A program made the position numbers and the translations under genes. DNA of 42,387 bases from an uncultured Sulfuricurvum sp. (GTDB lineage: Bacteria > Campylobacterota > Campylobacteria > Campylobacterales > Sulfurimonadaceae): the NCBI GenBank assembly GCA_903844635.1, contig CAIMUF010000011.1:1-42387 (forward strand). Reading direction: 5' to 3'. The notes below the pieces were generated by a model. That model saw only the letters and a list, made by a program, of their open reading frames with translations, was not told the DNA's origin and made no database searches. Shown one piece after another: positions 11,049 through 28,614 of the stretch. Numbering within the stretch: the first letter of the stretch is position 1; each line of letters starts with the position of its first letter.

Positions 11049-11062
11049 GCACGAATCTTGCA
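11047..11062 (+). promoter_or_regulatory. Sigma-54-like promoter before nifE
   Basis: AAGCACGAATCTTGCA matches the sigma-54 consensus TGGCACG-N4-TTGCW at the correct spacing. The -12 GC is at 11060-11061 and the -24 dinucleotide at 11048-11049. The -24 reads AG instead of GG. The predicted transcription start is near 11073, giving a ~24-base leader before the nifE ATG. Confidence 0.55.
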
Positions 11063-11096
11063 TATACCGCGGTAATTCACTCCCTAGGGGTTTTCC

Positions 11097-12455
11097 ATGG
11101 TCAGCCGCGCAAAAATAAAAGAACTTATGAACGAGAGTGCCTGCTCTCACAGTAAAGATAAAAAGCCGGGAGAGGGATGCGACAAGCCCAAACCGGGACT
11201 TGCAGCAGGGGGATGCGCATTTGATGGCGCTCAAATCTCCCTTTTTCCCTATGCTGATGCGGTACATCTCGTGCATGGCCCTCAAACATGTTTAGGTGCA
11301 TCATGGGAAACTCGTGAGACAAAAACGTCGTTTACAGGACGTGATCATACACAAATGGGCTTTACGACCGGTATTACGACGAATGATGTCATTTTTGGCG
11401 GGGACAAAAGGCTTGCCAGTTCTATTGACTATGTGATGGAGCACTATAAGCCCGAAGCGATTTTCGTATATTCTACATGCGTGACGGCACTTGTCGGGGA
11501 TGATATCGATATGACGTGTAAACTTGGGAGCGAAAAGTACAGTGTACCTATTGTCCCCGTTCATGCCGCAGGGTTTGTAGGGAGTAAAAATCTAGGATCA
11601 CGACTGGCGGGTGAAGCTGTACTGGAACATCTTATAGGGACAAAAGAGCCTGAGTTTACTACAGCATACGACATTAATCTTATCGGTGATTACAATGTCA
11701 CGGGAGATATGTGGCAGTATCTTCCTCTCTTTGAAAAAATCGGAATACGAGTCCTCAGTTCCATGAGCGGTGATGGACGTGTTGGGGATATCCGTACTGC
11801 ACATCGAGCGAAGCTCAATGTCATCGTGTGCGCAAAATCCCTCATTACCCTTACGCGTAAGATGCAAGAGCAGTACGCAATTCCCTGGATCTCTGTCTCA
11901 TTTTACGGTAAACGCGATACCTCTTTTGCCATCCGAGAAATAGTCACGGCACTGGGATGTCCCGAACTAATGGCACGTGCTGAAGCTGTGATTGCCGAAG
12001 CCGAAGCCGAGCTTGAAACGGCACTGATACCTTATCGTAAAATGTTCGCAGGGAAAAAAGCAGTACTCAATACGGGCGGAAACAAAGCATGGTCGATTGC
12101 GTCAGGCTTGCAGGATTTGGGAATCGAAGTAGTTGCGACGAGTGTGGCTAAATCAACGCAAGACGACATCGACAAAGCACGAGAGTACTTGGGTGAAAAT
12201 GGAGTTCTTATGACGAAACCAGCTTCTGAGCAAGGAAAGATCATCGATTCAACGGGTGCACATATACTCCTCGCCGGAGGGCGAAGCCTCTATACCGCGA
12301 TTAAGAAAAAAATCTCGTTTATCGATGTTAATCAGGAAAAAAAGACAAGTTACGGAGGATACGGTGGATTGCTCAATCTTGCAGAAGATCTGAAATACGC
12401 GTTTAAAAATCCTGTGTTTGCTAATGTCGGCAAACCTGCTCCATGGGAAGTGTGA
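11097..12455 (+). CDS. nifE: Nitrogenase iron-molybdenum cofactor biosynthesis protein NifE
   Basis: This 452-residue protein is the NifE half of the NifEN scaffold on which the NifB-derived cluster matures into FeMo-cofactor before transfer to the MoFe protein. The N-terminus has GGCAFDGAQISLFPYADAVH and HGPQTCLGASWETRET, so C40 and C65 are cluster ligands, with another Cys in YSTCVTALVGDDI near 128. DINLIGDYNVTGDMW near residue 183 is diagnostic of NifE rather than NifD. AGGGG precedes the ATG. Its partner nifN lies 1.8 kb downstream, separated by a transferase gene. Confidence 0.96.
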   Translation: MVSRAKIKELMNESACSHSKDKKPGEGCDKPKPGLAAGGCAFDGAQISLFPYADAVHLVHGPQTCLGASWETRETKTSFTGRDHTQMGFTTGITTNDVIFGGDKRLASSIDYVMEHYKPEAIFVYSTCVTALVGDDIDMTCKLGSEKYSVPIVPVHAAGFVGSKNLGSRLAGEAVLEHLIGTKEPEFTTAYDINLIGDYNVTGDMWQYLPLFEKIGIRVLSSMSGDGRVGDIRTAHRAKLNVIVCAKSLITLTRKMQEQYAIPWISVSFYGKRDTSFAIREIVTALGCPELMARAEAVIAEAEAELETALIPYRKMFAGKKAVLNTGGNKAWSIASGLQDLGIEVVATSVAKSTQDDIDKAREYLGENGVLMTKPASEQGKIIDSTGAHILLAGGRSLYTAIKKKISFIDVNQEKKTSYGGYGGLLNLAEDLKYAFKNPVFANVGKPAPWEV

Positions 12456-12548: not shown

Positions 12549-14096
12549 TTGAAAAATAAAATCCAACTAGAATTTCATACTAATAAATCGTACTTTTATT
12601 TTGGTATATTGATATCTGTATTAACGCTATTACCGCAGTTGATATTTTCTCCAAATTTCACTCATTCTGTATTTTTAATCATTACCTTGATATTATTGAT
12701 CACCATTCCCAAGTTTAGTAAAATATTATATTCTATATTTATTGTGTTTATCAATCTAAGTAATATCCTTATCGGGCATATTGCTCTGCATTGGGGATAT
12801 GTTTTACCGGATATTACACCTCGTATCGAAGTCGCTTTTTTATCACCGCTGTATGAATCCAAAGAATATATTTCCAGCTATATCGACTATAGAGATTATG
12901 GATTAATACTTTTTTCATTTTTCGTTTTATTTTTGTTATTCAAGTTTCTTAAACATTTTACCCACTCTTATAAAACCTTCAGGATTATAGGATTAGGCGT
13001 TTTTATATCGATACTTTTGGCAGTCACTTTTTACATTAATCCCATCAGAGAATTCGAACCTTTTAGCGTCCCTTGTAAAATTTGTACCGTGATGGATGAT
13101 AAAAATAAAATTGATCAAATCATGATTGAGAGAGCAAAATACATCGATCAAATGAAAATTATGAAAGCAAAACAAAAAAATCAGATTTATGACAAGATAA
13201 TCGTTGTCATGGGGGAAAGTGTCAATAAAAATCATATGTCCATCTATGGTTATTCTCTTCCAACAACTCCTTTTTTTACGTCTCTCCAAAAATCAAATCA
13301 TCTGTATGTCTTTAATGCGATAGCACCCACGAATCAGACCCGATACTCACTTCCCATCGATTTGAGTGAGGCAAATGTGCATTATTATGAGGATCGATAT
13401 TTACACTCCTGTTCCATACTGACGAACTTCAAGGCGAATTACTATGAAACATTTTGGATTTCAAACCAAGGGCGTGTAGGTAAGAATGACTCTTCTATCT
13501 CATCGATGGCGTATGAAGCTAAAACGACATTGTTCGCAAATCTAAATTATTTAGAGGCTAAAACGGATGAGGTTATCTTGGATTATTTAGACAAGCTTCA
13601 AAAAAATTCAAAAAAAGAAATGTATCTCTTACATATAATGGGGTCTCATTCTGATTATATAAACCGATATAAAAATGAAACTGCTTTGTTTAAAAATACC
13701 ACCAATATCGTTGAGCAGTATGATAATAGCATTCACTATACTGACATCATTCTAAGTCAAATATACGAGCGATTTAAAAACGAAAAATTGTTGCTAATCT
13801 ATGTATCGGATCATGGAGAAAATATCAATATGGAAAACAATGGGCATGGTTTTTTGCCAGCATTTAAAGATGAATTTATGGTTCCTTTTGTGATCTACAG
13901 CAATATCAAAAATCCACGATTGGATGAAATTTATAAAGATAATAAAAAAGGGTATTTCAATTTGGAAAATTTGAACTATATGGTTCAATATATCAGTGGC
14001 ATTACCAATCAAAAGAACTTATCTTTTTCGCATGACGTAATGGCTGTCGAACCCAGTAATATAGTCAACTTTGACACATTGGAATTTTACAACTAG
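12549..14096 (+). CDS. Lipid A/cell-surface phosphoethanolamine transferase (sulfatase fold)
   Basis: This 515-residue inner-membrane enzyme of the EptA/CptA group would move phosphoethanolamine from phosphatidylethanolamine to lipopolysaccharide or another surface acceptor. Five N-terminal hydrophobic helices (within residues 15-162) precede a periplasmic alkaline-phosphatase-like domain. That domain has MGESVNKNHMSIYGY (S224 at the nucleophile position, where EptA has Thr), SDHGEN (D421, H422) and GHGF (H433), the usual zinc ligands. The TTG at 12549 is the first possible start after an in-frame stop, so the start is fairly firm although no strong ribosome-binding site is seen. The gene is markedly more AT-rich than its nif neighbours and separates nifE from nifN, which suggests later insertion. 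Confidence 0.88.
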   Translation: MKNKIQLEFHTNKSYFYFGILISVLTLLPQLIFSPNFTHSVFLIITLILLITIPKFSKILYSIFIVFINLSNILIGHIALHWGYVLPDITPRIEVAFLSPLYESKEYISSYIDYRDYGLILFSFFVLFLLFKFLKHFTHSYKTFRIIGLGVFISILLAVTFYINPIREFEPFSVPCKICTVMDDKNKIDQIMIERAKYIDQMKIMKAKQKNQIYDKIIVVMGESVNKNHMSIYGYSLPTTPFFTSLQKSNHLYVFNAIAPTNQTRYSLPIDLSEANVHYYEDRYLHSCSILTNFKANYYETFWISNQGRVGKNDSSISSMAYEAKTTLFANLNYLEAKTDEVILDYLDKLQKNSKKEMYLLHIMGSHSDYINRYKNETALFKNTTNIVEQYDNSIHYTDIILSQIYERFKNEKLLLIYVSDHGENINMENNGHGFLPAFKDEFMVPFVIYSNIKNPRLDEIYKDNKKGYFNLENLNYMVQYISGITNQKNLSFSHDVMAVEPSNIVNFDTLEFYN

Positions 14097-14126: not shown

Positions 14127-14142
14127 CGCACAAATCTTGCAA
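14127..14142 (+). promoter_or_regulatory. Sigma-54-like promoter before nifN
   Basis: CGCACAAATCTTGCAA has the -12 GC at 14139-14140 and the -24 dinucleotide at 14127-14128 (CG rather than GG). It shares GCAC-R-AATCTTGCA with the nifE site. Transcription would start near 14152. The leader could fold a hairpin from 14159-14166 with 14176-14184 (ATCGG/CCGAT plus GCC/GGC around one bulged T). Confidence 0.5.
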
Positions 14143-14238
14143 TACGATTTCTTTTAACGCCATCGGAGCTAAACCCCGATTGGCTACGCTGGCCGCTATG
14201 GCACTAAAGCTTGCCTCTTCGAGGCTGAAAGAGTCGTT

Positions 14239-15537
14239 ATGGAATTCTCCCTCACACATAAAGAACACAAACCGCTTCAAGTTAATCCGATTAAGCATTC
14301 TCAACCAATGGGCGCGACGCTTGCTTTTTTAGGGGTAAAAGATTGTATGCCACTCATGCATGGTGCGCAAGGGTGTGCATCGTATACGAAGGTCTTTTTT
14401 ACCCGTCATTTTAATGAGCCCATTGCGGTGCGTAATACTTCGGTGAGTGATATTACTGCCGTTTTGGATGGTGGTGACTACTCGATTTTGATGGCGATAG
14501 AAAATATCCAGAGTAAAGAGAAAAATATCAAGCCCTCAATGATCGGTTTGCACACGACAGGCCTCACTGAAACGAAAGGGGATGATGTAAGGGGCGTGGG
14601 GATGCACATCGAAATCCCGTACGTTTTTGTCAATACTCCTGATTATGAGGGGGGCATGGATAGCGGTTGGGCGCTTACGGTTACGGCTATGATCGAACAG
14701 CTTACCTTGTCTGCCACAGACGTAAAATCCAATAAGCTCGTCCTTTTACCTCATTTGAGTATGCAACCCATCGAGGTTGAAAAAATAAAAGCACTGTGTG
14801 AAGATTTTGGTTTCGAGACCTATGCCCTTCCTGATCTCTCTACGTCTTTGGACGGCTATTGGGAAGAGGCTCAGGGGAAACTATCTAACGGGGGGATTAC
14901 GGTTGAGGAGATACGCTCTCTTGCTACCTGTGCGACCGTGATTAGTATCGGTCAGTCGATGAAAAAATCGGCACTTGCTTTGCAAAAAAAGAACCCCGCT
15001 ATCGAACATCTCCATTTCGATCATTTGATGGGATTGGATTCGAACGACAATTTTGTCGCCCAATTAATGAAAATCCGACATACTCAACCCAAACCACTGA
15101 TTAAACGATGGCGGGCAAGACTGCAAGATGCGATGCTGGATTCGCATTTTCTCATTGGAAGCTCTCATTTTGTCATCACGGGTGAACCGGATATGCTGGT
15201 GGGAATGTGTGCGCTGATTCGAAGTGTCGGCGGAACCATCGAAGCTGCGGTATCTACCACGTTTAGTGATGCTCTTCATACTATTGAAGCGGAGAATGTT
15301 TTCGTTGGGGATTTGGAAGATGCACGACGATTCTTTGATAAAGTGGATATGGTCATCAGCAATTTTCATGCAGAACGAATCTTGCATAGTTATCACGATA
15401 CGGCATTGGTAATACGAGGTTTCCCCAATTATGAAGAACTAGGGAATCAGCTTAAAAACGATCAGCTGTATGAGGGAAGTACGTATTTTTTATTTGAAAT
15501 TGCAAATGCACTCAGAAAGGTCAAACATGAACACTAA
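14239..15537 (+). CDS. nifN: Nitrogenase iron-molybdenum cofactor biosynthesis protein NifN
   Basis: This 432-residue protein is the second subunit of the NifEN scaffold. The N-terminal PIKHSQPMGATLAFLG followed by C36 and HGAQGCASYTKVFF (C46) is typical of NifN, as is the SVSDITAVLDGG segment. NifK-type P-cluster ligands are reduced in number, as expected. It heads a tight operon: nifX begins inside its last 11 bases. The start is the ATG preceded by a purine-rich GAGGCTGAAAGAG. Confidence 0.94.
   Translation: MEFSLTHKEHKPLQVNPIKHSQPMGATLAFLGVKDCMPLMHGAQGCASYTKVFFTRHFNEPIAVRNTSVSDITAVLDGGDYSILMAIENIQSKEKNIKPSMIGLHTTGLTETKGDDVRGVGMHIEIPYVFVNTPDYEGGMDSGWALTVTAMIEQLTLSATDVKSNKLVLLPHLSMQPIEVEKIKALCEDFGFETYALPDLSTSLDGYWEEAQGKLSNGGITVEEIRSLATCATVISIGQSMKKSALALQKKNPAIEHLHFDHLMGLDSNDNFVAQLMKIRHTQPKPLIKRWRARLQDAMLDSHFLIGSSHFVITGEPDMLVGMCALIRSVGGTIEAAVSTTFSDALHTIEAENVFVGDLEDARRFFDKVDMVISNFHAERILHSYHDTALVIRGFPNYEELGNQLKNDQLYEGSTYFLFEIANALRKVKHEH
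15371..15386 (+). promoter_or_regulatory. Possible internal sigma-54-like site within nifN
   Basis: CAGAACGAATCTTGCA differs by one base from the nifE site over the 15 bases AGCACGAATCTTGCA. The AG-N10-GC spacing is the same (AG 15372-15373, GC 15384-15385). It lies about 140 bases before nifX and could drive nifX onwards, but coding sequence may explain it. Confidence 0.2.
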
Positions 15538-15979
15538 AATTATAGTAGAAGGAAATACCGCGATGGATAGCGCTTTGCGCGTTGCTTTTGCAACCAAAGA
15601 TATGGAAGAGATCAACGCCCACTTCGGCGGAGCGAAAGAGTTTGTCGTTTATAACGTCTCGAAAGAGGGGTACGAAGTCTCTGAAGTGATTAAAACCGAT
15701 ACCAATGACATCGAAGATGATGATAAAACGGACTTTCGTGTTCGTGCCCTTAAAGGTGTGAATATTATGTACAGCGAGAGCATTGGCGGTACGGCAGCGG
15801 CAAAAGTTATCCGTGCTGGAATCCATCCGATGAAAGTAAATGAGTCGACATTGATCGAAGATGTACTCAAAAGTTTAGTAGAGATGATTAATGGCAATCC
15901 ACCACAGTGGATAAAACAGATAATTCAAATGAAAACCGAACACGATGTTCGACAAGACCGATGGGCAGTAGGAGAATAA
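15527..15979 (+). CDS. nifX: Nitrogenase cofactor carrier NifX
   Basis: This 150-residue protein belongs to the NifX/NifY/NafY family, which holds FeMo-cofactor precursors during transfer between NifB, NifEN and the apo-enzyme. The dinitrogenase-cofactor-binding domain is visible as LRVAFATKDMEEINAHFGGAKEF near the N-terminus and YSESIGGTAAAKVIRAGIHPMKV in the middle. The start at 15527 is chosen because AGAAAGG lies upstream; the reading can be extended back to 15470 without such a site. The gene overlaps nifN by 11 bases. Confidence 0.92.
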   Translation: MNTKIIVEGNTAMDSALRVAFATKDMEEINAHFGGAKEFVVYNVSKEGYEVSEVIKTDTNDIEDDDKTDFRVRALKGVNIMYSESIGGTAAAKVIRAGIHPMKVNESTLIEDVLKSLVEMINGNPPQWIKQIIQMKTEHDVRQDRWAVGE

Positions 15980-15981
15980 TT

Positions 15982-16434
15982 ATGGAAGCAGAAAAAACAA
16001 TGAGTCCTTTTGGTGTGGAGCTAATCCGCCAGATCCGTGCGCTTGATCAGTTTGGAAATTGGTCACGTATCACTGATGATGAATTACTGATCAAGAAATA
16101 CGTCAAGACTAAAGAAGAGCTCAAGGCAGTTCCTGTCATTGCAGATATTGATGAGATGATGATCAATGACATCAAAATGATCTACAAAGCGATTGCTCTT
16201 TCGTTTGAACGTAAAACGGGGATTGTTTGTAATGTCATTATGGAAATGAGTCACGAAGGATTTGGGAGATGTGCGATTCTTAGTGATCGTATTTGTATCA
16301 TTGATAAGTATTTTAAAGATGCGCATCGTTTCAGTTTTCGCAGTCTTGAAGCTCTCTTTGAAGAAGGGGATAAAAATTTGGAACGTGCATTGAAAGTGTA
16401 TGAACAATACAAACCGTGCATGATAGGTGTGTAA
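15982..16434 (+). CDS. NifX-associated nitrogen fixation protein (DUF269)
   Basis: This 150-residue protein matches the DUF269 family that almost always follows nifX. Recognisable parts are the N-terminal MSPFGVELIRQIRALDQFGNW, then INDIKMIYKAIALSFERKTG and the C-terminal FRSLEALFEEGDKNLERAL. Its biochemical role is not established; the linkage suggests cofactor maturation or delivery. GGAG at 15971-15974 supports the ATG at 15982, two bases after the nifX stop. Confidence 0.9.
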   Translation: MEAEKTMSPFGVELIRQIRALDQFGNWSRITDDELLIKKYVKTKEELKAVPVIADIDEMMINDIKMIYKAIALSFERKTGIVCNVIMEMSHEGFGRCAILSDRICIIDKYFKDAHRFSFRSLEALFEEGDKNLERALKVYEQYKPCMIGV

Positions 16435-16436
16435 TT

Positions 16437-16952
16437 ATGGCAACAATAGGTATTTTTTTCGGTAGCAGTAGCGGTGTGACTCGTGGGGCAGCAGAATTAC
16501 TCTGCGAACAGTTGTCAGGTTCAGAGCTTATCGATATGGAAGAAGATTTTGACGGGATAGAGCAGTTTGAGGAGTTTGATGTTCTTCTTATCGGTTCGTC
16601 TACCTGGGGGCAGGGTGATCCTCAACGTGATTGGGTCGATCCATTGTTTGATCTTACCAATGATAGCCCTGATCTAAGTGGTAAAAAAGTGGCATTTTTT
16701 GGTGCAGGAGATCAAGATAAGCATGGGGAACATTTCCTCAGTGTATTGGGAAAAATGCATGATTTATTTGTATCTTTAGGTGCAGACGCGTATGGATTTA
16801 CCTCTACCGATGGATATGACTATAAATTTTCTTTAGCTGAACGTGGCGGGAAGTTTTGTGGGCTTGGCATTGATGATGTGAACCAAGAGGATTTAACGGA
16901 AGAACGCGTTGTAAGCTGGGCAAACCAGCTCAAAATTGAGATGGGACTATAA
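16437..16952 (+). CDS. nifF: Flavodoxin (NifF-like electron donor)
   Basis: This 171-residue protein is a long-chain flavodoxin. The FMN phosphate-binding loop is at GIFFGSSSGVTRGAAELL (residues ~5-22), and the isoalloxazine-binding loops are STWGQGDPQRDW near 62 and FFGAGDQDKHGEHF near 88. The N-terminal loop reads SSSGVT where most flavodoxins have T-x-T-G-N-T. Its place in the nif operon suggests it feeds electrons to the nitrogenase Fe protein. It starts two bases after the previous stop. Confidence 0.9.
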   Translation: MATIGIFFGSSSGVTRGAAELLCEQLSGSELIDMEEDFDGIEQFEEFDVLLIGSSTWGQGDPQRDWVDPLFDLTNDSPDLSGKKVAFFGAGDQDKHGEHFLSVLGKMHDLFVSLGADAYGFTSTDGYDYKFSLAERGGKFCGLGIDDVNQEDLTEERVVSWANQLKIEMGL

Positions 16953-16962
16953 GGAGATTATG

Positions 16963-17337
16963 ATGGGAACGCTAGAAGAATTTCAACTTATTACGGATAC
17001 TGAAGAGTTTTTCGAATTTTTCGATTTGGCATACGATGAGCGTCTTGTGAACTCAAAACGTTTTCATATCATGAAAAAATTTGGTGAAATGGTCGAAAAA
17101 TCCAAAGGATATGATATGGGTGGCGATGAAAAGCTGCTTGAGTTTTATAAATTTGCCCTTATCAGTGTGTATAAAAATTTCGAAAACGGTTACAGCCCAT
17201 CCGCTGCCGATGTTTGGGAAATGTTTGATAAGCCCAGCGGATGCGGTACATGTGCAACGTCCACCAGTTGTAATGATGTAGAGGAGGTGAGTCATGGAGT
17301 CCATGCCTGTGTCAGCCAACCAAGCCTCAGCTTCTGA
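16963..17337 (+). CDS. nifW: Nitrogenase stabilising/protective protein NifW
   Basis: This 124-residue protein matches NifW, which associates with the MoFe protein and helps it survive oxygen. The core is EEFFEFFDLAYDERLVNSKRFH, then a helix ending FALISVYKNFENGY. The tail is unusual for the family: CGTCATSTSC (four Cys counting the first) and another Cys near the end could bind metal. AAGGAG at 16951-16956 lies six bases before the chosen ATG; another ATG at 16960 is also possible. The gene overlaps nifZ by 44 bases. Confidence 0.82.
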   Translation: MGTLEEFQLITDTEEFFEFFDLAYDERLVNSKRFHIMKKFGEMVEKSKGYDMGGDEKLLEFYKFALISVYKNFENGYSPSAADVWEMFDKPSGCGTCATSTSCNDVEEVSHGVHACVSQPSLSF

Positions 17338-17800
17338 TTTTTTGACACAAACGGCTGATGCAGCACAAGCTGCATTGGAGTCGTGTGAGCATGATAGTGA
17401 AGCAATGCCGATTAATAATGAAGCACGAAAAACAAACCTCTACAAGATGTCGACCAAAGATGAAATTCTTTCGGTATTTCGAGTAGGGGAGCGTGTTCGA
17501 CTGACGAAAACTATACGTAATGATGGAACCTATCCTCATGCACGCACCGGCGATACTCTTGTTGAGGCAGGTTCGGAAGGGTATGTCCGTAAAATCGGAG
17601 ATTTTCTTCAAACGATACGAGTTTATGAAGTCAACTTTATCGAAGAAGGGCTGACGTTCGGTTGTCGTGAAGCGGAACTTGAAAGTGCGCTTGAAGATGA
17701 TGGATATGATGAGGTTGCAGAAGAGTTACAATGGCTCAAAGAACATCGTGCGCAACGTGCCGCAGAGAAGTTGGCGCAATCTCAAAAAGGGGAGGAGTAA
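17294..17800 (+). CDS. nifZ: Nitrogen fixation protein NifZ
   Basis: This 168-residue protein carries the NifZ domain at about residues 62-135 (GERVRLTKTIRNDGTYP, GSEGYVRKIGDFLQTIRVYEVNF, FGCREAEL). NifZ acts in forming the second P-cluster of the MoFe protein. The domain is preceded by ~60 residues of Ala/Ser/Glu-rich extension not usual for the family. A strong GAGGAGGTGA lies just before the ATG at 17294, while the internal ATG at 17447 has no such site, so the extension is probably translated. The C-terminal ~30 residues are a charged helix. Confidence 0.85.
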   Translation: MESMPVSANQASASDFLTQTADAAQAALESCEHDSEAMPINNEARKTNLYKMSTKDEILSVFRVGERVRLTKTIRNDGTYPHARTGDTLVEAGSEGYVRKIGDFLQTIRVYEVNFIEEGLTFGCREAELESALEDDGYDEVAEELQWLKEHRAQRAAEKLAQSQKGEE

Positions 17801-17885: not shown

Positions 17886-18269
17886 ATGGTAAACGTCATT
17901 TTTTGTGGTTTCGGTGAAAAGGTAGACAAGCGTGTTTTTGCTAAAACAGGCGATGTATTATTACGTGTTGCTGAAAGTAATGGAATAAAAATTCCATCAG
18001 AATGCAAAGACGGTATGTGCGGAAGCTGTGCTGTTAGAGTTGAAGAAATTTCCAACGATGAGAAAATGGATTCAACAACTGAAGACTATTCATCAAAGGG
18101 ACAAGCTGTCTATATGGACGATAAAGAGCTTGAAACGTTGATAAGTATGGGTGCAATCACTAAAAAAGAAGCAGAAGTTGCTCAACAGTACAATCGTCCG
18201 ACACCGGTACGTTTGGCATGTCAATGTGCTATCAAAAATGCTTCAATCTTAGTTAAACCATATAACTGA
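17886..18269 (+). CDS. [2Fe-2S] ferredoxin resembling the FeSII (Shethna) protective protein
   Basis: This 127-residue plant-type ferredoxin has the cluster motif SECKDGMCGSCAVRV (three Cys near residues 40-48) and the fourth Cys in VRLACQC near 112. A ~50-residue insert separates them, and TPVRLACQ follows. This layout is like the Azotobacter FeSII protein, which binds nitrogenase under oxygen stress, but the match is from memory of the family pattern. It may instead be an electron donor. AGGGGG lies seven bases before the ATG, and 85 bases separate it from nifZ. Confidence 0.82.
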   Translation: MVNVIFCGFGEKVDKRVFAKTGDVLLRVAESNGIKIPSECKDGMCGSCAVRVEEISNDEKMDSTTEDYSSKGQAVYMDDKELETLISMGAITKKEAEVAQQYNRPTPVRLACQCAIKNASILVKPYN

Positions 18270-18332: not shown

Positions 18333-18623
18333 ATGACAACACGCGTAGAAATTATAAATGACTTTTTGGCGATCAATGTCCATCCGGGCAAAACGATCCA
18401 AGACATCGTAGAAGCATCAGGAAGTGCTCTTCCATTCGGTTGCCGTGACGGTGAATGCGGTACTTGTGTCGTAATGATTGAATCAGGTATGGAGTTTATG
18501 AGTCCTATCAATGATAAAGAAAAAGCGGTACTTAAAACAGTGGGTGAAACCAGTGCAAAAGCACGTCTTGCTTGCCAAATGAAAGTGGTACAGCCTAACG
18601 GACTGGTACGTATTAAATACTAA
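18333..18623 (+). CDS. [2Fe-2S] ferredoxin
   Basis: This 96-residue plant/vertebrate-type ferredoxin has the cluster motif FGCRDGECGTCVVMIESG (three Cys near residues 37-45) and the fourth Cys in ARLACQMKV near 83. It is shorter than the preceding ferredoxin and lacks its insert. The likely role is electron transfer to nitrogenase or a partner enzyme. AGGGG precedes the ATG. A double hairpin directly follows the stop codon. Confidence 0.88.
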   Translation: MTTRVEIINDFLAINVHPGKTIQDIVEASGSALPFGCRDGECGTCVVMIESGMEFMSPINDKEKAVLKTVGETSAKARLACQMKVVQPNGLVRIKY

Positions 18624-18691: not shown

Positions 18692-18749
18692 ACTTATCGA
18701 GAACAAAATATGCAGTCTCTAGGATAGATTTATAGATTTTAGGTGGATT

Positions 18750-20018
18750 ATGATGCAAACAACTCTCTCTTATAAACAAAAACAACTTCCACGACTTTCG
18801 ATGCAGACATGGCTTCCATTGTTGCAATGTTCTTTGAATGATTTAGAAAAACATTTACAAGTCATTACCAATGAAAATCCTTGTATTGAGATGAAATCGG
18901 GCTTTGAAGAATCCAATGCGCAAGCAGGAGGGGCATCGGTGTACGGTGCTTTTCAAAACTATGTCTCGAATGCTTCGAGTGATCAAATCGAGTGGCTTAG
19001 TATCTCTTCGACGTCATTGTATGAAAAACTCGATGAGCAGATCGTTGCCCCATTGTTTCCAACCCCAATATCTCAAAAAATTGCTCGACAAATTATTTAT
19101 TACATCAGTGATGAAGGATATTTTGAGGGAAGTGTGGAAGAGATTGCCCAGCAATGCGATACAGATTCTCACACTGTTGAACGTGTACGTCAGCGGTTTG
19201 CACATTTAGAACCATCAGGGGTGGGAGCATGTGATTACAAAGAATCCTTTTTGTTTCAGCTCAATGATTATGAACTCGATGACGATTTGAGCATTTTGCT
19301 CTCTGCTATGATTTTGCAGTTCGATAAGATGGAAAAATTTATCAAGAATCCTCGTTTTGGAGATGCAAAACACGTCCTACAACATCTCAAAAATCCTCCG
19401 GCATTAGAGTATATGGAGCCAGAAACGCAAATTGTTCCTGATTTGTTTGTCGAGTTCTCGGGATCGGAGTTGAATATTCGGATCAACCATACTTTTTATC
19501 CCGATTTAAAAGTCAATATGATCGATAAGTACGACAATTTTGCCAAACAAAAATTCAAAGAGGCACGTGAACTCGTTAAACTTCTCGATTTGCGTAAAGC
19601 AACCCTTTATAACGTCGCATTGGTACTTATCGAGAAACAGTACAGCTTTTTTATGGGAGGAGAACTCAAACCGCTTCGTCTCCAAGATGTCGCTGATGAG
19701 CTTGGATTTAATGAATCCACGATTTCCAGAGCAATTTCGGATAAATACATGCAAACAGAGAGAGGACTTTATCCATTTAAAGATTTTTTCTCGAATTGCA
19801 TCGGAGAAGTATCGACTTCAGAGATTAAACACTTTTTGAAACGGCTTGTTTTGAGTGAAAATAAAGACGATCCCTTTAGTGATAAGACACTGCATGAGAT
19901 GATTGAAGAGCGATTTGGTGTAAAAATGGTGCGTCGTTTGATCGCTAAATACCGTCAAGAACTCGATATTCCATCGTACAAAGAACGATTATTTTTGTAT
20001 AAACTAGAGCTGCTTTAA
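18750..20018 (+). CDS. rpoN: RNA polymerase sigma-54 factor, divergent form
   Basis: This 422-residue protein has sigma-54 region I (TTLSYKQKQLPRLSMQTWLPLLQ, residues ~4-26), the core-binding region (~65-240) and the HTH (VADELGFNESTISRAISDKY, ~310-329), which leads into the FKDFFS element. The RpoN box near residue 400 reads VRRLIAKYRQ instead of the standard ARRTVxKYRE. The Arg pairs and KYR are kept, but Thr is Leu and the last Glu is Gln. The protein then ends in an atypical hydrophobic tail (FLYKLELL). Its place after the nif genes suggests control of nif promoters with an enhancer-binding NifA encoded elsewhere. AGGTGG supports ATG 18750 or 18753. Confidence 0.92.
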   Translation: MMQTTLSYKQKQLPRLSMQTWLPLLQCSLNDLEKHLQVITNENPCIEMKSGFEESNAQAGGASVYGAFQNYVSNASSDQIEWLSISSTSLYEKLDEQIVAPLFPTPISQKIARQIIYYISDEGYFEGSVEEIAQQCDTDSHTVERVRQRFAHLEPSGVGACDYKESFLFQLNDYELDDDLSILLSAMILQFDKMEKFIKNPRFGDAKHVLQHLKNPPALEYMEPETQIVPDLFVEFSGSELNIRINHTFYPDLKVNMIDKYDNFAKQKFKEARELVKLLDLRKATLYNVALVLIEKQYSFFMGGELKPLRLQDVADELGFNESTISRAISDKYMQTERGLYPFKDFFSNCIGEVSTSEIKHFLKRLVLSENKDDPFSDKTLHEMIEERFGVKMVRRLIAKYRQELDIPSYKERLFLYKLELL

Positions 20019-20240: not shown

Positions 20241-20292
20241 GCTGCAAATTGAAAGTCTCTGAAATGACACATAATGCATGGAGGTAGTAAAA

Positions 20293-20679
20293 ATGGCGAA
20301 AAGAGTAATAATCGTTGATGATTCACGAGCAGTAGTTGCGACGGCAGAATTAGCGTTGGACGGTTTGATCACCAGTGGGGTGATCGAGTTTAAATCGTAT
20401 TTGAATCCGTTGGATTTATTGAGTGCATTGCAATCAGGAAGCGAGAATTTCGATCTGCTCATCAGCGATGTCAATATGCCTGAAATGAATGGCTTGGATT
20501 TGGCACGATTGATTAAAGCGGATGAGAGATACAAAACAAAACCCATTATTATCTTGACTACCGAAAGTTCAGAGCAGATGAAAATGGTCGGTAAAGAGAT
20601 CGGAGTTACAGGATGGATGGTCAAACCGTTTAGCGAAGAGAAACTGGTGAAATCTCTCAAAATGGTATTGGGGGTATAG
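20293..20679 (+). CDS. CheY-like single-domain response regulator
   Basis: This 128-residue receiver domain has the acidic pair D9/D10 (IIVDDSRA), phospho-acceptor D59 (ISDVNMPEMNG), a Thr in the LTTESS switch region and the Lys of TGWMVKPF. No output domain is present. It is the first gene of the chemosensory operon and is the likely phosphorylation target of the CheA encoded there. GGAGG at 20280-20284 fixes the start at 20293 rather than 20278. CheW follows two bases after the stop. Confidence 0.92.
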   Translation: MAKRVIIVDDSRAVVATAELALDGLITSGVIEFKSYLNPLDLLSALQSGSENFDLLISDVNMPEMNGLDLARLIKADERYKTKPIIILTTESSEQMKMVGKEIGVTGWMVKPFSEEKLVKSLKMVLGV

Positions 20680-20681
20680 CA

Positions 20682-21179
20682 ATGGAGTCCAATATCGTCC
20701 AGTCACGAAAGGAACGCTACCTCACTTTTTTCCTAGGAGAGGAGCAATATGGAATCTCAATCGATCGGATCAAAGAGATCATGGCGATGATGAAAGTGAC
20801 TCAAGTGCCTAAAACTCCCAAGTATATGCGTGGTGTTATCAATTTGCGAGGATCCATCATCCCCGTCGTTGATACACGTCTTCGTTTTGGGATGGAGCCA
20901 CAAGAGGAAACGATGCACACGGCAATCATCATTGTCGAAGTGGAAAAAGTCAATATCGGATTTATCGTCGATCGTGTCGAAGAGGTTGCCTCTATCGATA
21001 CGGCACGTTTGAGTGAGCCTCCTAAATTTGGCAGTCATATCGATACCGATTTCATTTGTGCTATGGCTCAAATCGAAGAAAACGTTGTGATGATCTTGGA
21101 TGTGCTCAAGCTATTTGAAGCCGATGAGTTGGTGAGTTTAGAACAAATACAGCAAATACACATGCGTGAGGGAGAATGA
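20682..21179 (+). CDS. cheW: Chemotaxis coupling protein CheW
   Basis: This 165-residue CheW-like beta-barrel protein links receptors to CheA. Typical features are TFFLGEEQYGISIDRIKEIM near the start, VPKTPKYMRGVINLRGSIIPVVD (residues ~47-69) and GFIVDRVEEV near 90-100. The receptor gene begins two bases after its stop codon, so receptor and adaptor are made together. Confidence 0.95.
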   Translation: MESNIVQSRKERYLTFFLGEEQYGISIDRIKEIMAMMKVTQVPKTPKYMRGVINLRGSIIPVVDTRLRFGMEPQEETMHTAIIIVEVEKVNIGFIVDRVEEVASIDTARLSEPPKFGSHIDTDFICAMAQIEENVVMILDVLKLFEADELVSLEQIQQIHMREGE

Positions 21180-21180
21180 G

Positions 21181-22818
21181 ATGAATTGGTTAGAAAATAT
21201 GGTGTTGCAAAGCAAGTTGGTGTTTTTAACAGCAGTTATGATGATTGCTCTTTCTACATTGGGATATTTGGGATACAGCACAACCCAAAAATGGGAAAGT
21301 GGAATTACAGAAGTAGGGGGAGTAAAGCTTCCCTCTATTGTAGGTGTTATGGAAATGCGTATCGGAATTAATCAGATTGTCATTCAACAAAATCGCGTTC
21401 GTGGTCTCAAGGAAGATACGGGAATAGCCAGTAAGCTCCAAGATGCCCTTGAGCGAATGAATAAAGGATTTGAGCGCTATGAAAAAGGGGTTAAAATTTA
21501 TGCTCCGCTTCCACAAACGCCCGAAGAAGCAATCGAGTGGAAAAGTTTTGAAGAGAATTTTGGAAAATGGAAAGAATTGAGCTTAGCCTTTCAAGCCAAT
21601 ACTTTGGTCCCGCTAGCGGCTAATACTGATCCTACAATGATTGATGGCTATTTTGCTCAGATGAAAGTGTTTATTGAAACCAGTCGCACTTCTCGTACCG
21701 CTGCATTGGAAAGCATGGATAAAATTGCTAAGATCAATATTGACGGTGCAGATGCAGCAGTTAAGACGGCACAAAAAGATTCAAGTAGTGCGGTACAAAT
21801 GACCATTACAATCATCCTAATTTCTTTTGCAATATCTATACTATTGTCAATACTAATCATTCGTTCCATTACACGCTCTATTACATCGAGCGTTACCTCT
21901 ATCCGAGATGGTGCGATGCAAATCACTTCGGCTTCCGATCAAGTAGCCGCATCGTCTTCCTCTCTCGCACAAGGGGCCAGTGAACAAGCGTCAAGTGTTG
22001 AAGAAGTAAGTGCGACATTAGAAGAAAGTACAGCAATCAATACACAAAATACCGATAACGCACGTCAAGCGGATATCTTGGCAAAAAATGCCAATGATTC
22101 AGCGCGTGCAGGATTTGAAAAAGGGGAACAGCTTTCTCGTTCCATGCATGCTATTACCGATTCAGCGGCAAAAATATCAGGAATCATAAAAACCATCGAT
22201 CAAATCGCATTCCAAACGAATCTTTTGGCATTGAATGCAGCCGTTGAAGCTGCGCGTGCAGGTGAACACGGATTGGGCTTTGCGGTCGTAGCGGATGAAG
22301 TGCGTAATCTCGCACAACGTGCGGCATCTGCTGCAAAAGAGACTTCTGTGATTATCGAAGAGGTTGTCTCTCAGATCAAAGAGGGAAATCAAATCGCCCT
22401 CGCAACCCATACCTCATTCCAAGAGATTGTTGAACAGTCGAAAAAAGTCTCTAATCTTATTGGTGAAATTGCCATTGCCGGTAAAGAACAAGCTGAGGGT
22501 ATGACTCAAATCAATCAAGCTATGGGGCAAGTCGATCAAGTGACACAGCAAGTTGCTGCCAACTCCGAAGAAGCCGCTGCCGCAGCGGAAGAGCTTAACG
22601 CTCAAGCTACCTCGATGATGGAAACCGTACGAGTCCTTGCTCAAATGGTTGGAATGACTACGGATGCTCCAGTAGCAAAAGCAAAACCGCTCCGTCATTT
22701 AGAGATGAAAGCTCCAGTAGCTCAACGTAGAACTATGAATATTCCTCAAAGCAGAGGCTCTTCCACTAAAGCGGATGATATTTTCCCTCTCCATGAAGAT
22801 GATTTGAAAGAGTTCTAA
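21181..22818 (+). CDS. Methyl-accepting chemotaxis protein
   Basis: This 545-residue receptor has TM1 at ~13-33, a ~170-residue helical periplasmic sensor of the four-helix-bundle type, TM2 at ~205-228, a short HAMP-like linker and a long cytoplasmic coiled coil. The kinase-control tip is IDQIAFQTNLLALNAAVEAA and the following GFAVVADEVRNLAQR. There is no C-terminal pentapeptide tether for CheR or CheB. The ligand is unknown. The ATG at 21181 follows GGGAGAATGAG and overlaps the end of cheW closely. Confidence 0.95.
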   Translation: MNWLENMVLQSKLVFLTAVMMIALSTLGYLGYSTTQKWESGITEVGGVKLPSIVGVMEMRIGINQIVIQQNRVRGLKEDTGIASKLQDALERMNKGFERYEKGVKIYAPLPQTPEEAIEWKSFEENFGKWKELSLAFQANTLVPLAANTDPTMIDGYFAQMKVFIETSRTSRTAALESMDKIAKINIDGADAAVKTAQKDSSSAVQMTITIILISFAISILLSILIIRSITRSITSSVTSIRDGAMQITSASDQVAASSSSLAQGASEQASSVEEVSATLEESTAINTQNTDNARQADILAKNANDSARAGFEKGEQLSRSMHAITDSAAKISGIIKTIDQIAFQTNLLALNAAVEAARAGEHGLGFAVVADEVRNLAQRAASAAKETSVIIEEVVSQIKEGNQIALATHTSFQEIVEQSKKVSNLIGEIAIAGKEQAEGMTQINQAMGQVDQVTQQVAANSEEAAAAAEELNAQATSMMETVRVLAQMVGMTTDAPVAKAKPLRHLEMKAPVAQRRTMNIPQSRGSSTKADDIFPLHEDDLKEF

Positions 22819-22819
22819 G

Positions 22820-23083
22820 ATGCAATTCGACGGAGATGTCCTCACGATAGGATTGGATATGCCCATGGAAGAGATTCGCGAGTTTGAAGCGTTTGTCCGA
22901 CCTCGTTTGGAGTACATTGAAACCATCGAAGCCGAAGATGGGACGCAGTTGCGGCACAGTGCGTTATTAGCATTGTTGATGAGTCTGAAACGGACAAAAA
23001 AAGAGCTGAAAATACCTTTTATCGAACGTGGAGAAGCAGCTTCGGTTGCTTACGGAACGTTGCATTGGATGTGTCATGACTAA
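22820..23083 (+). CDS. Small STAS-like protein in the chemosensory operon
   Basis: This 87-residue protein lies between the receptor and CheA. The pattern of a short beta strand (DVLTIGLD), an acidic helical part, then HSALLALLMSLKRTKKELKI and PFIERG resembles a STAS (anti-anti-sigma/MlaB-like) fold. S47 sits where such proteins carry the phosphorylated Ser. The assignment is by pattern only. It could be a small regulatory or scaffold partner of CheA. Its stop overlaps the CheA start by eight bases. Confidence 0.65.
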   Translation: MQFDGDVLTIGLDMPMEEIREFEAFVRPRLEYIETIEAEDGTQLRHSALLALLMSLKRTKKELKIPFIERGEAASVAYGTLHWMCHD

Positions 23084-25154
23084 ACAAGAACAAGTCAAAG
23101 CGATTTTTATCGAAGAAGCGGGTGAGATCATCGAAAAATTGGATGTCGATATTCTCCGATTTGAAGAGAACTCGGCTGATTTTGATCTACTGAATGAGAT
23201 TTTCAGAGGAGTTCATACCCTAAAGGGAAATGCTAATGCGTTTGGCTTTACCCGTTTGGGAGAATTTGTTCACCATTTTGAAGATGTTCTTGACCACTAT
23301 CGCAGTACGAAAGAGGATGTTGAAGAGCATCATCTGGAGCTTTTTGTCGGTAGTGTGGACGTTATAAAAGAGGTCATGACATGTGAGCTCGATGCACTTC
23401 CTGATTTACCGGCAGATTATGCAGGATGCTTAGAGAAGATCAAACATCTCATAGCGTCGAAAAAAAACAAACCTTTAGAATCAATAATAAAAGTAAATTC
23501 TCAAGTATTTAATGATTTAGCCATAGAATTTGCTTTTGATGATATTCAGCTTCAAGATACAGACATAGAGAAATGTATTGAAATCCATCAAGCTTCGCGC
23601 ACTGAGGGTCTAAATCTTTATCGGATCGAGTTAACACTTGATGCTGATTGCTATAAACGAGGATTCGATCATCTTTTGTTTTTGAAGTTATTGGCTGAAA
23701 ATGCAACTTCATTGGAAAGTTTCTTTGAGCTTGATAATATTCCCTCTTTGGATACCTTTAGCAGTGATGAAAATGCGATCACCAGAGTGACCGCAATTCT
23801 TTTGAGTGCTCAAACACCCAACGATGTGGCAGAAAATTTTGAATATTTATCCGATCAGGAATACAGTATCGTGCTCATTGAACCTATTGTTCTCGCGATA
23901 GAAAAAGTACAAGCGGTTGTCGTTGAAAAAAGTCCCGGTGCAGAAGTGGCAAAAACATCCTCTGCTAATGCACCAAAATCGACTATTCGTATTGATACGT
24001 TCAAACTTGACGAGCTTTTTGATTCGGTTGGTGAACTGGTAATCGCCCAAAACTTCATCGCCCAAAATGAAAAAATACGTGCCATCGAAGATGAATCGAT
24101 CAGCCGAGCCATCGAAACGCTCTCCAAAATTACAAAACGAATTCAAGACCGTGTTATGAGTCTGAGAATGGTCGCAATACGTGACACTTTTGACAAGATG
24201 AAACGAGTGGTTCGGGACACGTCTAAAAAGACGGGAAAAGAGCTTCATCTAAACGTCCAAGGTGAAGAGACTGAAATCGACAAAACGATGATTGACAGTT
24301 TATCTGATCCGTTGATCCATATAATTCGAAATGCTATCGATCACGGGCTTGAAGCAGATGCCGCCGAGAGACTGAGTGTCGGTAAAAAAGTAGAAGGGAC
24401 GATAACGCTGCGTGCCTATCATAAAAGTGGCAGTATCGTTATCAGTGTCAGTGACGACGGACGAGGAATCAACAAAGAAAAAGTATTAAAAAAAGCGATT
24501 GAGCGAGGGATAATAGCAGGGGATGAACATCTGACTGATTCTCAAATTTTCGCACTCATCATGCAACCGGGGTTTTCAACAGCGGATACAATCAGTGATC
24601 TCTCGGGACGCGGGGTTGGTTTGGATGTGGTGAAAACTTCGATTGAAAAACTACGCGGGAAGATCGAAATTGATTCCAAAGAGGGAGTAGGTACAACATT
24701 TTCTATGGTTCTTCCTCTAACTTTGGCTATTATCGATGGGATGTTGGTACAAGCTGCCGGTGAGATTTATATTATTCCTACTCTAAGTGTCGTTGAATCC
24801 TTCCGACCTGAACGTGAAATCGTCCATGCGCTCAAAGAAAAAGGGGAGTTTGTCTCTTTGCGAGGACAGCATATTCCAGTGATTCGTCTCAGTGATATAT
24901 TTGAACTTCCCACCAAGCGCATCGAGCCGTGGGAAGGGATTTTAGTATGCGTCGAAACGGAAGCAGGGCGTATTGCTATTATGGTGGATGAGCTCGTAGG
25001 GCGGCAGCAAGTGGTGATTAAACCATTGGGCAAGGCTTTGGCGAAACTCAAAGAGATCACGGGCGGTGCAATCTTAGGAAGCGGTGATATTGCACTTATT
25101 CTTAATGTCGATGAACTGCGTCCCCTCATCGAGGCTCCTCATGGTGGAAATTGA
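23076..25154 (+). CDS. cheA: Chemotaxis histidine kinase CheA
   Basis: This 692-residue kinase has a P1/HPt domain with phospho-accepting H47 (RGVHTLKGNANAFGF), a poorly conserved central part (~130-290) with no recognisable CheY-binding P2, and the P3 dimerisation helices (~300-360). The P4 ATPase follows with IIRNAIDHGLE, VSDDGRGIN and GRGVGLDVV, then a P5 CheW-like regulatory domain (~550-690). It would phosphorylate the CheY-like protein and CheB of this operon. The start at 23076 fits the overlap with the upstream gene; an in-frame start at 23028 is less likely. Confidence 0.95.
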   Translation: MTKQEQVKAIFIEEAGEIIEKLDVDILRFEENSADFDLLNEIFRGVHTLKGNANAFGFTRLGEFVHHFEDVLDHYRSTKEDVEEHHLELFVGSVDVIKEVMTCELDALPDLPADYAGCLEKIKHLIASKKNKPLESIIKVNSQVFNDLAIEFAFDDIQLQDTDIEKCIEIHQASRTEGLNLYRIELTLDADCYKRGFDHLLFLKLLAENATSLESFFELDNIPSLDTFSSDENAITRVTAILLSAQTPNDVAENFEYLSDQEYSIVLIEPIVLAIEKVQAVVVEKSPGAEVAKTSSANAPKSTIRIDTFKLDELFDSVGELVIAQNFIAQNEKIRAIEDESISRAIETLSKITKRIQDRVMSLRMVAIRDTFDKMKRVVRDTSKKTGKELHLNVQGEETEIDKTMIDSLSDPLIHIIRNAIDHGLEADAAERLSVGKKVEGTITLRAYHKSGSIVISVSDDGRGINKEKVLKKAIERGIIAGDEHLTDSQIFALIMQPGFSTADTISDLSGRGVGLDVVKTSIEKLRGKIEIDSKEGVGTTFSMVLPLTLAIIDGMLVQAAGEIYIIPTLSVVESFRPEREIVHALKEKGEFVSLRGQHIPVIRLSDIFELPTKRIEPWEGILVCVETEAGRIAIMVDELVGRQQVVIKPLGKALAKLKEITGGAILGSGDIALILNVDELRPLIEAPHGGN

Positions 25155-25965
25155 GTTAAAACCGGAAGAATTTGCCCTTTTCCGCCGTTATATTTATGAC
25201 AAAGTCGGAATCGCATTATCCGAACAAAAAAGTACCTTGGTAAAAGGACGGCTGAACAAACGGCTCAATCAGTTGGGTTTACACTCATTTCGTGCCTATT
25301 ATGATTATTTGATCGTGGAGGAATCGGGTGAAGAATTAGCATTGTTTATCAATGCCATATCAACAAACGTCACTTCTTTTTTCCGTGAAGGGGCGCAATG
25401 GAAATGGCTGGAAACGTATTTGCCCGCACTGATTGCGTCAAAACGGGAGAAAAAAATTCGTATCTGGTCGGCCGGGTGTTCGAGCGGGGAAGAGCCGTAT
25501 ACTATTTTGATGTTTTTACAGCATCATTTGAGCGATTTCGAGCAATGGGATATCAAGATTTTGGCAACCGATATCTCTGCTAAAGTCCTAGCAAAAGCAA
25601 TCGCAGGGAACTATGATGCCAAGCAAGTTGAATCACTGTCTAAAGAGATTCTCCACCGTGCATTTGATAAAGTAAAAACGCAAGACGGGTTGACGTATCA
25701 GATAGCACCACATTTACGCGAGAAAGTTCTGTTTCGTCTTTACAATCTGGTAACTGATCCGTTTATTTTCAAAAATAAATTTGACATGGTTTTTTGCCGT
25801 AATGTGATGATTTATTTTGATGATACGACCCGTCATGAACTAATCGGCCGTTTTAGCACGGTATTGCCAAAAGGAGCTCCGCTTTTTTTAGGGAGTTCCG
25901 AATCTTTGACCACCCATCGCGAGACTCTAAAGCTTTTGGGCTCGTCGATCTATCAACGTTTATAA
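25141..25965 (+). CDS. cheR: Chemotaxis receptor methyltransferase CheR
   Basis: This 274-residue protein has the N-terminal helical domain (FALFRRYIYDKVGIAL) and the SAM-binding methyltransferase domain with IWSAGCSSGEEPYTI near residues 105-120 and FCRNVMIYFD near 220. It methylates glutamates of the receptor using S-adenosylmethionine, opposing CheB. The ATG at 25141 lies within the last 14 bases of cheA. Confidence 0.94.
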   Translation: MVEIELKPEEFALFRRYIYDKVGIALSEQKSTLVKGRLNKRLNQLGLHSFRAYYDYLIVEESGEELALFINAISTNVTSFFREGAQWKWLETYLPALIASKREKKIRIWSAGCSSGEEPYTILMFLQHHLSDFEQWDIKILATDISAKVLAKAIAGNYDAKQVESLSKEILHRAFDKVKTQDGLTYQIAPHLREKVLFRLYNLVTDPFIFKNKFDMVFCRNVMIYFDDTTRHELIGRFSTVLPKGAPLFLGSSESLTTHRETLKLLGSSIYQRL

Positions 25966-25975
25966 AAGGGCTCCT

Positions 25976-27331
25976 ATGGAGAAACTACAAACTGCTATGA
26001 CACTAAAAGAGGCGAAATTCGACATCAATGAGCTCTTTTTTTCGATTACCGATCAAGACAGTACGATTCGTTCCGGAAATGAAGTATTTATTCGAATAAG
26101 CGGCTATAAAAAAGATGAATTAATCGGAAGTTTTCATAATATTATCCGCCATCCGGATATGCCTAAAATTATTTTTAAAACATTTTGGGAGTACTTGCAA
26201 GCGGGTAAACCGATTGTGGCATATGTGAAAAACAAGACAAAAGAGGGGGGATACTATTGGGTATTAGCTGCGGTTTTTCCTCTCAATGACCGCTATGTTT
26301 CGATTCGTATTAAACCTAACAGCACGATCTTCGCAGCAGCAAAAGAGCTCTACTTTAAATTATTGATGGCAGAAACAAAAGAGAATATTGAAGCCAGTGC
26401 TGCACTCTTGCCGCAACTATTAAGCGAGCTAGGATACACAACGTACGATCATTTTATGAGTGAGGTTTTACTCCAGGAGTTGCAAGAGCGACAAAAGGTC
26501 ATTTCTCCTTCAGAAGATGAATCGCAGAGTGAATCTCCTTTGACATTGGCATACAGTCACAGTAAGACACTCATGAAAGAGTATGACAGCTGGTTTGATA
26601 AAATAGAGATGTTTAGCCAAGTAAAGTCGATGTTTGAAGAAAAAGGTCTGGTCTTGCGTCTACTTGCACGCGAGATCGTCTTTTTGTCACTCAATGCCTC
26701 GGTATCATCCTATAAAATCGAAAATGGGGGCGAAACATTTGGTGTGCTTGCTCGCGATATTCGGATCAATGCAAAAGAGAATGATGTCCTAATCGATCAG
26801 ATTCACACCAATGTTGAGACGATAACACTTTTACTTAATGAAGTTATTTTTTCTGTTTCCGCCATACGATTGCAAATTGAGATGGTACTCTTTTTTTTAG
26901 AAGAGGTATTGCACCAATGCGATGAGTTTGGGATGGATGAGATCGTGAATAATATGAACGATCTAGTCGTTTTGGTCATAAACTATACGGATAAATTAAA
27001 CGCTGTTCAAGCACAACTGGAGATTAAAATCCAAGAGACGCTGACTAATCTAAATCAGCTCGAACAGCAAATGATGTATTTGGGCTACGTTCAAATCTAT
27101 GGCATTATCGAAGCTGCTGCAAGCCAAGATGAGTCCGCACGGTTTCAAGTTATCTTCTCGCAACTCAAAACGTTGGTACAGCAAACCTCGCATGAGATTG
27201 AAACAATGCAAAAAATGGGAGGAAGTTTTTATTCTGAAAACCGACTTTTACTGGAGAAATCAGCCAGTATTGAAAAAGTATCAGAATTGTTAAAAGAAGA
27301 GATTTTAATCCTGCAAAGAAGGAAACAATAA
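25976..27331 (+). CDS. PAS protein with a vestigial receptor-tip sequence (Aer-like)
   Basis: This 451-residue soluble protein starts with an Aer-type PAS domain (~15-120; IIRHPDMPK and the KTKEGGYYWVLA strand), a class that often binds FAD and senses redox or oxygen. Near residues 222-262 it has FLSLNASVSSYKIENGGETF followed by GVLARDIRINA. This aligns position by position with the conserved MCP tip, but with key residues changed. The C-terminal half is coiled coil. No transmembrane segment is seen. It may be a cytoplasmic input or a decoy partner of the CheA-CheW array. Confidence 0.8.
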   Translation: MEKLQTAMTLKEAKFDINELFFSITDQDSTIRSGNEVFIRISGYKKDELIGSFHNIIRHPDMPKIIFKTFWEYLQAGKPIVAYVKNKTKEGGYYWVLAAVFPLNDRYVSIRIKPNSTIFAAAKELYFKLLMAETKENIEASAALLPQLLSELGYTTYDHFMSEVLLQELQERQKVISPSEDESQSESPLTLAYSHSKTLMKEYDSWFDKIEMFSQVKSMFEEKGLVLRLLAREIVFLSLNASVSSYKIENGGETFGVLARDIRINAKENDVLIDQIHTNVETITLLLNEVIFSVSAIRLQIEMVLFFLEEVLHQCDEFGMDEIVNNMNDLVVLVINYTDKLNAVQAQLEIKIQETLTNLNQLEQQMMYLGYVQIYGIIEAAASQDESARFQVIFSQLKTLVQQTSHEIETMQKMGGSFYSENRLLLEKSASIEKVSELLKEEILILQRRKQ

Positions 27332-27332
27332 G

Positions 27333-28609: not shown

Positions 28610-28614
28610 AGCAA

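Follow-up and report, generated by a model that had tools for sequence, protein, structure and literature searches.

A hallmark of sigma-54 is activator-dependent initiation with core RNA polymerase, and searches for sigma-54 promoters take the GG of the -24 element to be almost invariable. The closest described system is that of Rhodobacter (Cereibacter) sphaeroides, in which RpoN1, serving the nif genes with NifA, and RpoN2, serving the flagella with FleQ, differ in how they read position -11 and each work with a separate activator (PMC11999139). The locus analyzed here lies in a stretch of 42,387 nucleotides from an uncultured Sulfuricurvum sp. (the window), and in a scan of named genomes the closest relatives of this genome were Sulfuricurvum (Sulfurimonadaceae), the best match being 99% identical. 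In the following, RpoN2 denotes its nif-linked sigma-54 and RpoN1 the paralogue beside lptB. R. sphaeroides is similar in having two sigma-54 paralogues, one for nif and one for flagella, there with their own activators, and its promoter difference at -11 recurs in the Sulfurimonadaceae. Three features of a nif-dedicated paralogue of the R. sphaeroides RpoN1 type were found here as well, i.e., a second rpoN for the flagella in the same genome, a genomic tie to nif genes together with a NifA-type activator, and the promoter distinction at -11. However, the discriminators reported for R. sphaeroides are -11 and the activator, whereas the Sulfurimonadaceae also change -25, and their nif factor belongs to an old Campylobacterota clade tied to the nif operon. 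The reading proposed here, to which we assign a probability of about 0.8, is that RpoN2 would be a nif-dedicated factor that is relaxed at -25 and insulated from RpoN1. In the literature searched, which covered few subscription journals, we found no description of the shift at -25 or of its confinement to a single branch, this absence being weak evidence; within the same scope, no study of rpoN together with nif in Sulfuricurvum or Sulfurospirillum was found.

The gene rpoN2 is the last one of a nifE-nifN-nifX-fldA-nifW-fdx-fdx-rpoN operon (Table 1). Its product contains all three sigma-54 domains, the activator-interacting (AID; 1.3e-6), the core-binding (CBD; 1.2e-31) and the DNA-binding domain (DBD; 2.5e-45) in Pfam, it is homologous across most of its length to solved sigma-54 chains in the PDB (E 2e-36), and the RpoN domain of its model resembles 2o8k, the RpoN domain bound to a -24 element (TMt 0.78). 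The open reading frame lies exactly where the preliminary description had placed it and encodes a complete sigma-54. The two -24-reading arginines of the box (R395 and R396 in RpoN2) are invariant among all aligned proteins. The exact consensus ARRTVAKYRE is found neither in RpoN2 nor in the ordinary RpoN of the phylum and is hence non-essential; as membership rests on domains and fold, the departure makes RpoN2 a less typical sigma-54 without lowering its membership. Compared with the sigma-54 proteins of E. coli, Klebsiella and Aquifex (7qv9, 5ui5, 2o8k), RpoN2 shares the homology over most of the length, the arginines R455/R456 and the fold of the RpoN domain; it differs in replacing T457, S470 and K/Q475 and in a hydrophobic C-terminal helix past the usual end.

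Table 1. Features of the nif operon, rpoN2 and the putative promoters in the window (promoter numbering: GG = -25/-24, GC = -13/-12).
Feature	Position	Strand	Evidence or remark
Putative nifE promoter, A AG CACGAATCTT GC ATA	11047-11064	+	A at -25; orthologues C/A in 24/25
nifE	11097-12455	+	TIGR01283, 515.7 bits (cut-off 505.1)
Putative nifN promoter, CG CACAAATCTT GC AATA	14127-14144	+	C at -25; C in 18/19 orthologues
nifN	14239-15537	+	TIGR01285, over cut-off
Candidate internal promoter (within nifN, preceding nifX), AG AACGAATCTT GC ATAG	15372-15389	+	Similar site in relatives L057, L229, L230, L232
nifX	15530-15979	+	TIGR02663, over cut-off
NifX-associated protein	15979-16434	+	TIGR02935, over cut-off
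Flavodoxin (long chain), fldA	16434-16952	+	TIGR01752, over cut-off
NifW-like	16960-17337	+	NF010702, E 6e-19, below cut-off
Conserved operon gene between nifW and ferredoxins	17294-17800	+	No NCBIfam match; present in orthologous operons
2Fe-2S ferredoxin-like protein 1	17886-18269	+	Weak family match; conserved operon position
2Fe-2S ferredoxin-like protein 2, gene immediately preceding rpoN2	18333-18623	+	Sequence; conserved operon position
Putative sigma-54-type promoter of rpoN2, CG AG AACAAAATAT GC AG	18698-18715	+	A at -25 = 18700; AG 18700-18701; GC 18712-18713
rpoN2, nif-linked sigma-54 paralogue	18750-20018	+	422 aa; Pfam AID, CBD, DBD; PDB chain matches; model vs 2o8k
RpoN box M393-R402 (MVRRLIAKYR)	19926-19955	+	Alignment with E. 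coli sigma-54 and 111 RpoN proteins
RR of the box (E. coli R455/R456)	19932-19937	+	Same alignment
Clade-specific L397 (E. coli T457)	19938-19940	+	Same alignment
Hydrophobic C-terminal tail, residues 410-422, YKERLFLYKLELL	19977-20015	+	Clade-specific residues; predicted helix 410-421

The gene at 17294-17800 is kept in nearly all nif operons examined and matches no NCBIfam family. Between nifE and nifN, a phosphoethanolamine-transferase-like gene (CptA/EptA type, below the NCBIfam cut-offs) is located at 12549-14096, and immediately 3' of rpoN2 follows a long chemotaxis-like cluster (20278-29637), in which a response regulator and CheW-like, methyl-accepting, CheA-, CheR-, CheD- and CheB-like proteins were named by eye. 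Likewise by eye, two small overlapping minus-strand genes at 2214-2800 resemble a toxin-antitoxin pair, one being RelE/ParE-like and the other RelB-like.

Box and tail of RpoN2 read MVRRLIAKYRQELDIPSYKERLFLYKLELL; the box of RpoN1 from the same genome is ordinary and reads MVRRTIAKYRSQANIAGSSERKKLYQLGR. The preliminary description had contrasted VRRLIAKYRQ with ARRTVxKYRE, and this departure is real in part: the V before RR and the exchange V458I occur phylum-wide and are normal for the group, as the ordinary RpoN1 box of the same genome has them, whereas the changes peculiar to the RpoN2 clade are, in E. coli numbering, T457 replaced by L (in relatives by S or V) and Q-E at 463-464. To these add S470 to Y/F and position 475 (K/Q) to F. 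The arginines R455/R456, which read the -24 element (PMC9770992), are the residues that stay unchanged in the RpoN2 clade (for these residues see also PMC7175178), while the next residue of the helix and the following segment are altered. Since 41 aligned proteins of the clade share these changes, a private oddity or a sequencing error was rejected as their source. The hydrophobic end, also pointed out earlier, proved to be specific for the clade and is predicted as an ordered helix: in the AlphaFold2 model the box lies in helix 396-405 and the tail in helix 410-421 with a local pLDDT of about 80-90, the full-length model (low pTM of 0.39) being used solely for these local C-terminal helices.

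The suggestion that a dedicated factor exists next to a flagellar sigma-54 was pursued via a search for a second rpoN, and such a gene with a standard box is present on contig C35 of the same genome, adjoining lptB; RpoN2 is thus not the only RpoN of this genome. The objection that the altered box may simply be normal for the genus holds for the nif-linked paralogue solely and fails as it was meant. RpoN2 and the Campylobacterota RpoN1 belong to the same protein family with an identity of approximately 39-44%, and RpoN1 combines its ordinary box with TGG-N10-GCT promoters upstream of flagellar genes. Among the sigma-54 activator matches of the genome two are strong, one protein having 559 aa (E 4.5e-76) and the other 398 aa (E 5.1e-72), and the remaining matches are weak. 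By their size and distribution, and with no family model naming them, the two strong ones are inferred to be NifA and FlgR, respectively.

To place both factors, a tree of 111 RpoN proteins was calculated with box and tail left out (supports are SH-aLRT), the Sulfurimonadaceae being family f1 and the other Campylobacterota families f3, f4, f7 and f10. In this tree, nif-linked and lptB-linked RpoN fall apart: the nif-linked proteins of f1, f3, f4, f7 and f10 form one clade (100), the lptB-linked RpoN1 the other (100), and the altered f1 group is a single clade (100) nested in the nif-linked one, with G399 of f3 as its possible sister (85). The order of the nif operon is common to all families compared. 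Judged by this tree, nif-linked RpoN is an old clade that extends across several Campylobacterota families. In f3, f4, f7 and f10 these proteins belong to the same clade as RpoN2 and are encoded in the operon nifN-nifX-nifXa-fldA-nifW-(unknown)-fdx-fdx-rpoN; they differ in that the box (RRTITKYRK..IPSSKERKK.YK) is ordinary, as are the nif promoters, which read GG-N10-GC. Altered box and hydrophobic tail are thus confined to the Sulfurimonadaceae branch, and outside the altered group the only departure of nif-linked RpoN from the ordinary box is a serine at position 457, present in two proteins. S, V or L at 457 alone as the cause of the promoter change was rejected, because G224 (L205) and G399 (L211) have the serine and keep GG promoters.

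For 101 Sulfurimonadaceae genomes, co-occurrence tables were compiled by hand. RpoN2 and nifH occurred together in 40 genomes, RpoN2 alone in 3, nifH alone in 5 and neither in 53 (p 5e-19, shared descent ignored), and RpoN1 and flagellar rod proteins occurred together in 75, RpoN1 alone in none, flagella alone in 7 and neither in 19 (p 4e-15, shared descent ignored). Three of the five nifH-only genomes (G059, G079, G091) carry a different nif-linked RpoN, and the other two are incomplete drafts. Moreover, in non-motile diazotrophs RpoN2 is the sole RpoN and a NifA-type protein of 540-600 aa the sole activator, motile genomes without nif have only RpoN1 and the shorter FlgR-type activator, and RpoN is missing altogether from genomes with neither nif nor flagella, the single-contig G073 being one example. 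Two other single-contig genomes, G025 and G010, retain both lptB and the downstream gene, with a clean absence of rpoN1 between them. A role swap in G071, G085 and G088, which are of high completeness and have flagella while RpoN1 was not seen, was set aside: the neighboring lptB is missing too, so that a missing contig is likely and an assembly gap is the simpler reading. Many bacteria serve nif and flagella with one RpoN, which would fit RpoN2 being a redundant second copy with RpoN1 transcribing nif as well; this is very improbable in view of the two co-occurrence patterns, the non-motile diazotrophs with RpoN2 only, and the separate promoter consensus of nif and flagella described below. 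The distribution, the tree and the second rpoN together support the dedicated factor proposed earlier, and RpoN2 is almost certainly, as far as genome comparison can tell, a sigma-54 dedicated to nitrogen fixation.

The preliminary description had further stated that the nearby candidate promoters deviate at -24. This deviation is real at rpoN2 (AG), nifE (AG) and nifN (CG); the base concerned is the first G, i.e., -25. A first promoter scan required G at -24, left -25 unscored and took the best site upstream of orthologous genes, and a blind scan ignored -25, -12 and -11 altogether. In the first scan, 201 of 229 real upstream regions reached the threshold compared to 1.5% of shuffled ones, and in most genes the sites lie about 35 bp from the start codon. 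It is therefore highly improbable that these putative promoters are chance matches and not sigma-54 sites. NifA-type sites (TGT-N10-ACA) gave few scattered matches in the window and none ahead of the nif promoters.

At -25, the first scan yielded A 127, C 38, G 5 and T 1 (n=171) in Sulfurimonadaceae genomes with both factors, A 22, C 2 and G 14 in genomes with RpoN2 only, and G in 24/24 nif promoters of the other families, whereby sites within one genus are non-independent and the sample represents a part of the RpoN2 regulon. The blind scan gave the same picture, with A 87, C 31, G 4 and T 1 for nif promoters in genomes with both factors (n=123), A 16, C 2 and G 13 in RpoN2-only genomes (n=31), and G in all 28 flagellar and all 18 other-family nif promoters. 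The putative RpoN2 targets thus depart from GG-N10-GC, reading (A/C)G-N10-GC in 118/123 sites and having G in part of the RpoN2-only lineages. At -11, T was found in 28/28 flagellar promoters versus A in 123/123 Sulfurimonadaceae nif promoters (blind scan), and nif promoters have A at this position in every group. That flagellar promoters are ordinary GG-N10-GC had been named as an argument against a dedicated set; they are indeed ordinary, yet this is exactly what a separate RpoN1 predicts. Against the pattern stands the draft genome G015, which has both flagella and nifH and whose nifH promoter reads GG, with no nif-linked RpoN seen in its assembly. The non-motile Sulfuricurvum G045 still has A at -25. 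Taken as a pattern in upstream regions, the shift of the promoter code at -25 is very probably real. Only the branch that has the altered box shows the promoter change, in agreement with the co-evolution suggested earlier, and by this comparison the shift of the factor and that of the promoters fall on one branch; as they changed together only once, the covariation counts as a single event.

For this reason a coincidence is statistically possible, and one may assume that only the promoters relaxed, strong drive by NifA making a weak -24 element sufficient and the changes of the box being unrelated drift. We consider this improbable: the base at -25 is non-random (A or C in 165/171), in the first scan it is kept per promoter over seven genera with -24 to -21 and -14 to -11 staying conserved, and GG is kept in all 24 nif promoters of other families. 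Conversely, RpoN2 might positively prefer A or C at -25 via a new contact of residue 397 or the C-terminal helix. Such a switch in specificity appears rather unlikely, albeit less so than promoter relaxation alone. Most promoters show a strong preference for A (rpoN2 33/33 at the orthologous site of genomes with both factors; nifH 30/30), T occurs in 1/171, and the tail is clade-specific and predicted to be an ordered helix; against this, nifE and nifN use mostly C whereas the other genes use A, and the G in 13/31 sites of RpoN2-only genomes implies that G must be acceptable.

The relaxed and insulated RpoN2 proposed here would accommodate these observations as follows. RpoN2 would pair with NifA on nif genes and RpoN1 with FlgR on flagellar genes. 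On the branch leading to the Sulfurimonadaceae, the DNA-reading module of RpoN2, consisting of box helix and C-terminal helix, may have lost the need for G at -25, and the nif promoters may subsequently have dropped this G, so that a GG-requiring RpoN1 could neither use them nor be titrated by them. Position -11, with A in nif and T in flagellar promoters, would serve as a second discriminator. Given the AG promoter immediately in front of its gene, RpoN2 probably activates its own transcription, which would give positive feedback once NifA is active. We lean toward a link between the promoter shift and the box/tail module of RpoN2, against which the unchanged contact arginines have to be held. 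Because some nif promoters of RpoN2-only lineages carry G at -25, this base is probably acceptable to RpoN2. Its near-absence from genomes that have RpoN1 would then best be explained by avoidance of RpoN1, a claim for which the main evidence comes from two RpoN1-less genera (g8, g11), in which the G may have been either retained from the ancestor or regained. Whether insulation from RpoN1 was the selective reason for the change at -25 we judge to be evenly balanced; such insulation is not obligatory, since the sister family f10 has two RpoN and keeps GG nif promoters. Slightly favored is the more general formulation that a Sulfurimonadaceae sigma-54 reads an (A/C)G -24 element, that nif and flagellar regulons are orthogonal, and that loss of RpoN1 lets nif promoters return to GG. 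Against the relaxed and insulated RpoN2 it has to be held that the RpoN2-only lineages are mixed at -25 and not uniformly G.

The system is of interest as a natural pair of factor and promoter that departs from the GG rule across a whole family, with sister families as an unchanged control and the RpoN1-less lineages as a natural experiment. It makes the reading of -25 by sigma-54 and the separation of two sigma-54 regulons directly testable, and it would offer an orthogonal sigma-54/promoter pair, seemingly a naturally evolved private line for turning on nitrogenase. Moreover, a large part of the nif regulon of these sulfur-oxidizing diazotrophs would escape standard scans for sigma-54 promoters.

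Two further observations concern the promoters. A thiol-peroxidase-like gene (by eye) beside nifA has an AG-N10-GCA promoter with A in 16/18 cases (loci L145-L174), and due to this shared promoter type it seems to be part of the RpoN2 regulon. Finally, genomes with another nif-linked RpoN, i.e., G059, G079, G091 and G437 of the Sulfurimonadaceae and G253 and G436 of f10 (loci L077, L079, L080, L085-L087, L198, L202, L212), have GG-N10-GT nif promoters with T for C at -12 in 13/14 sites, and in their RpoN the residue equivalent to E. coli H377, in the helix reading -12, is E or D, as it also is in some RpoN with GC promoters.
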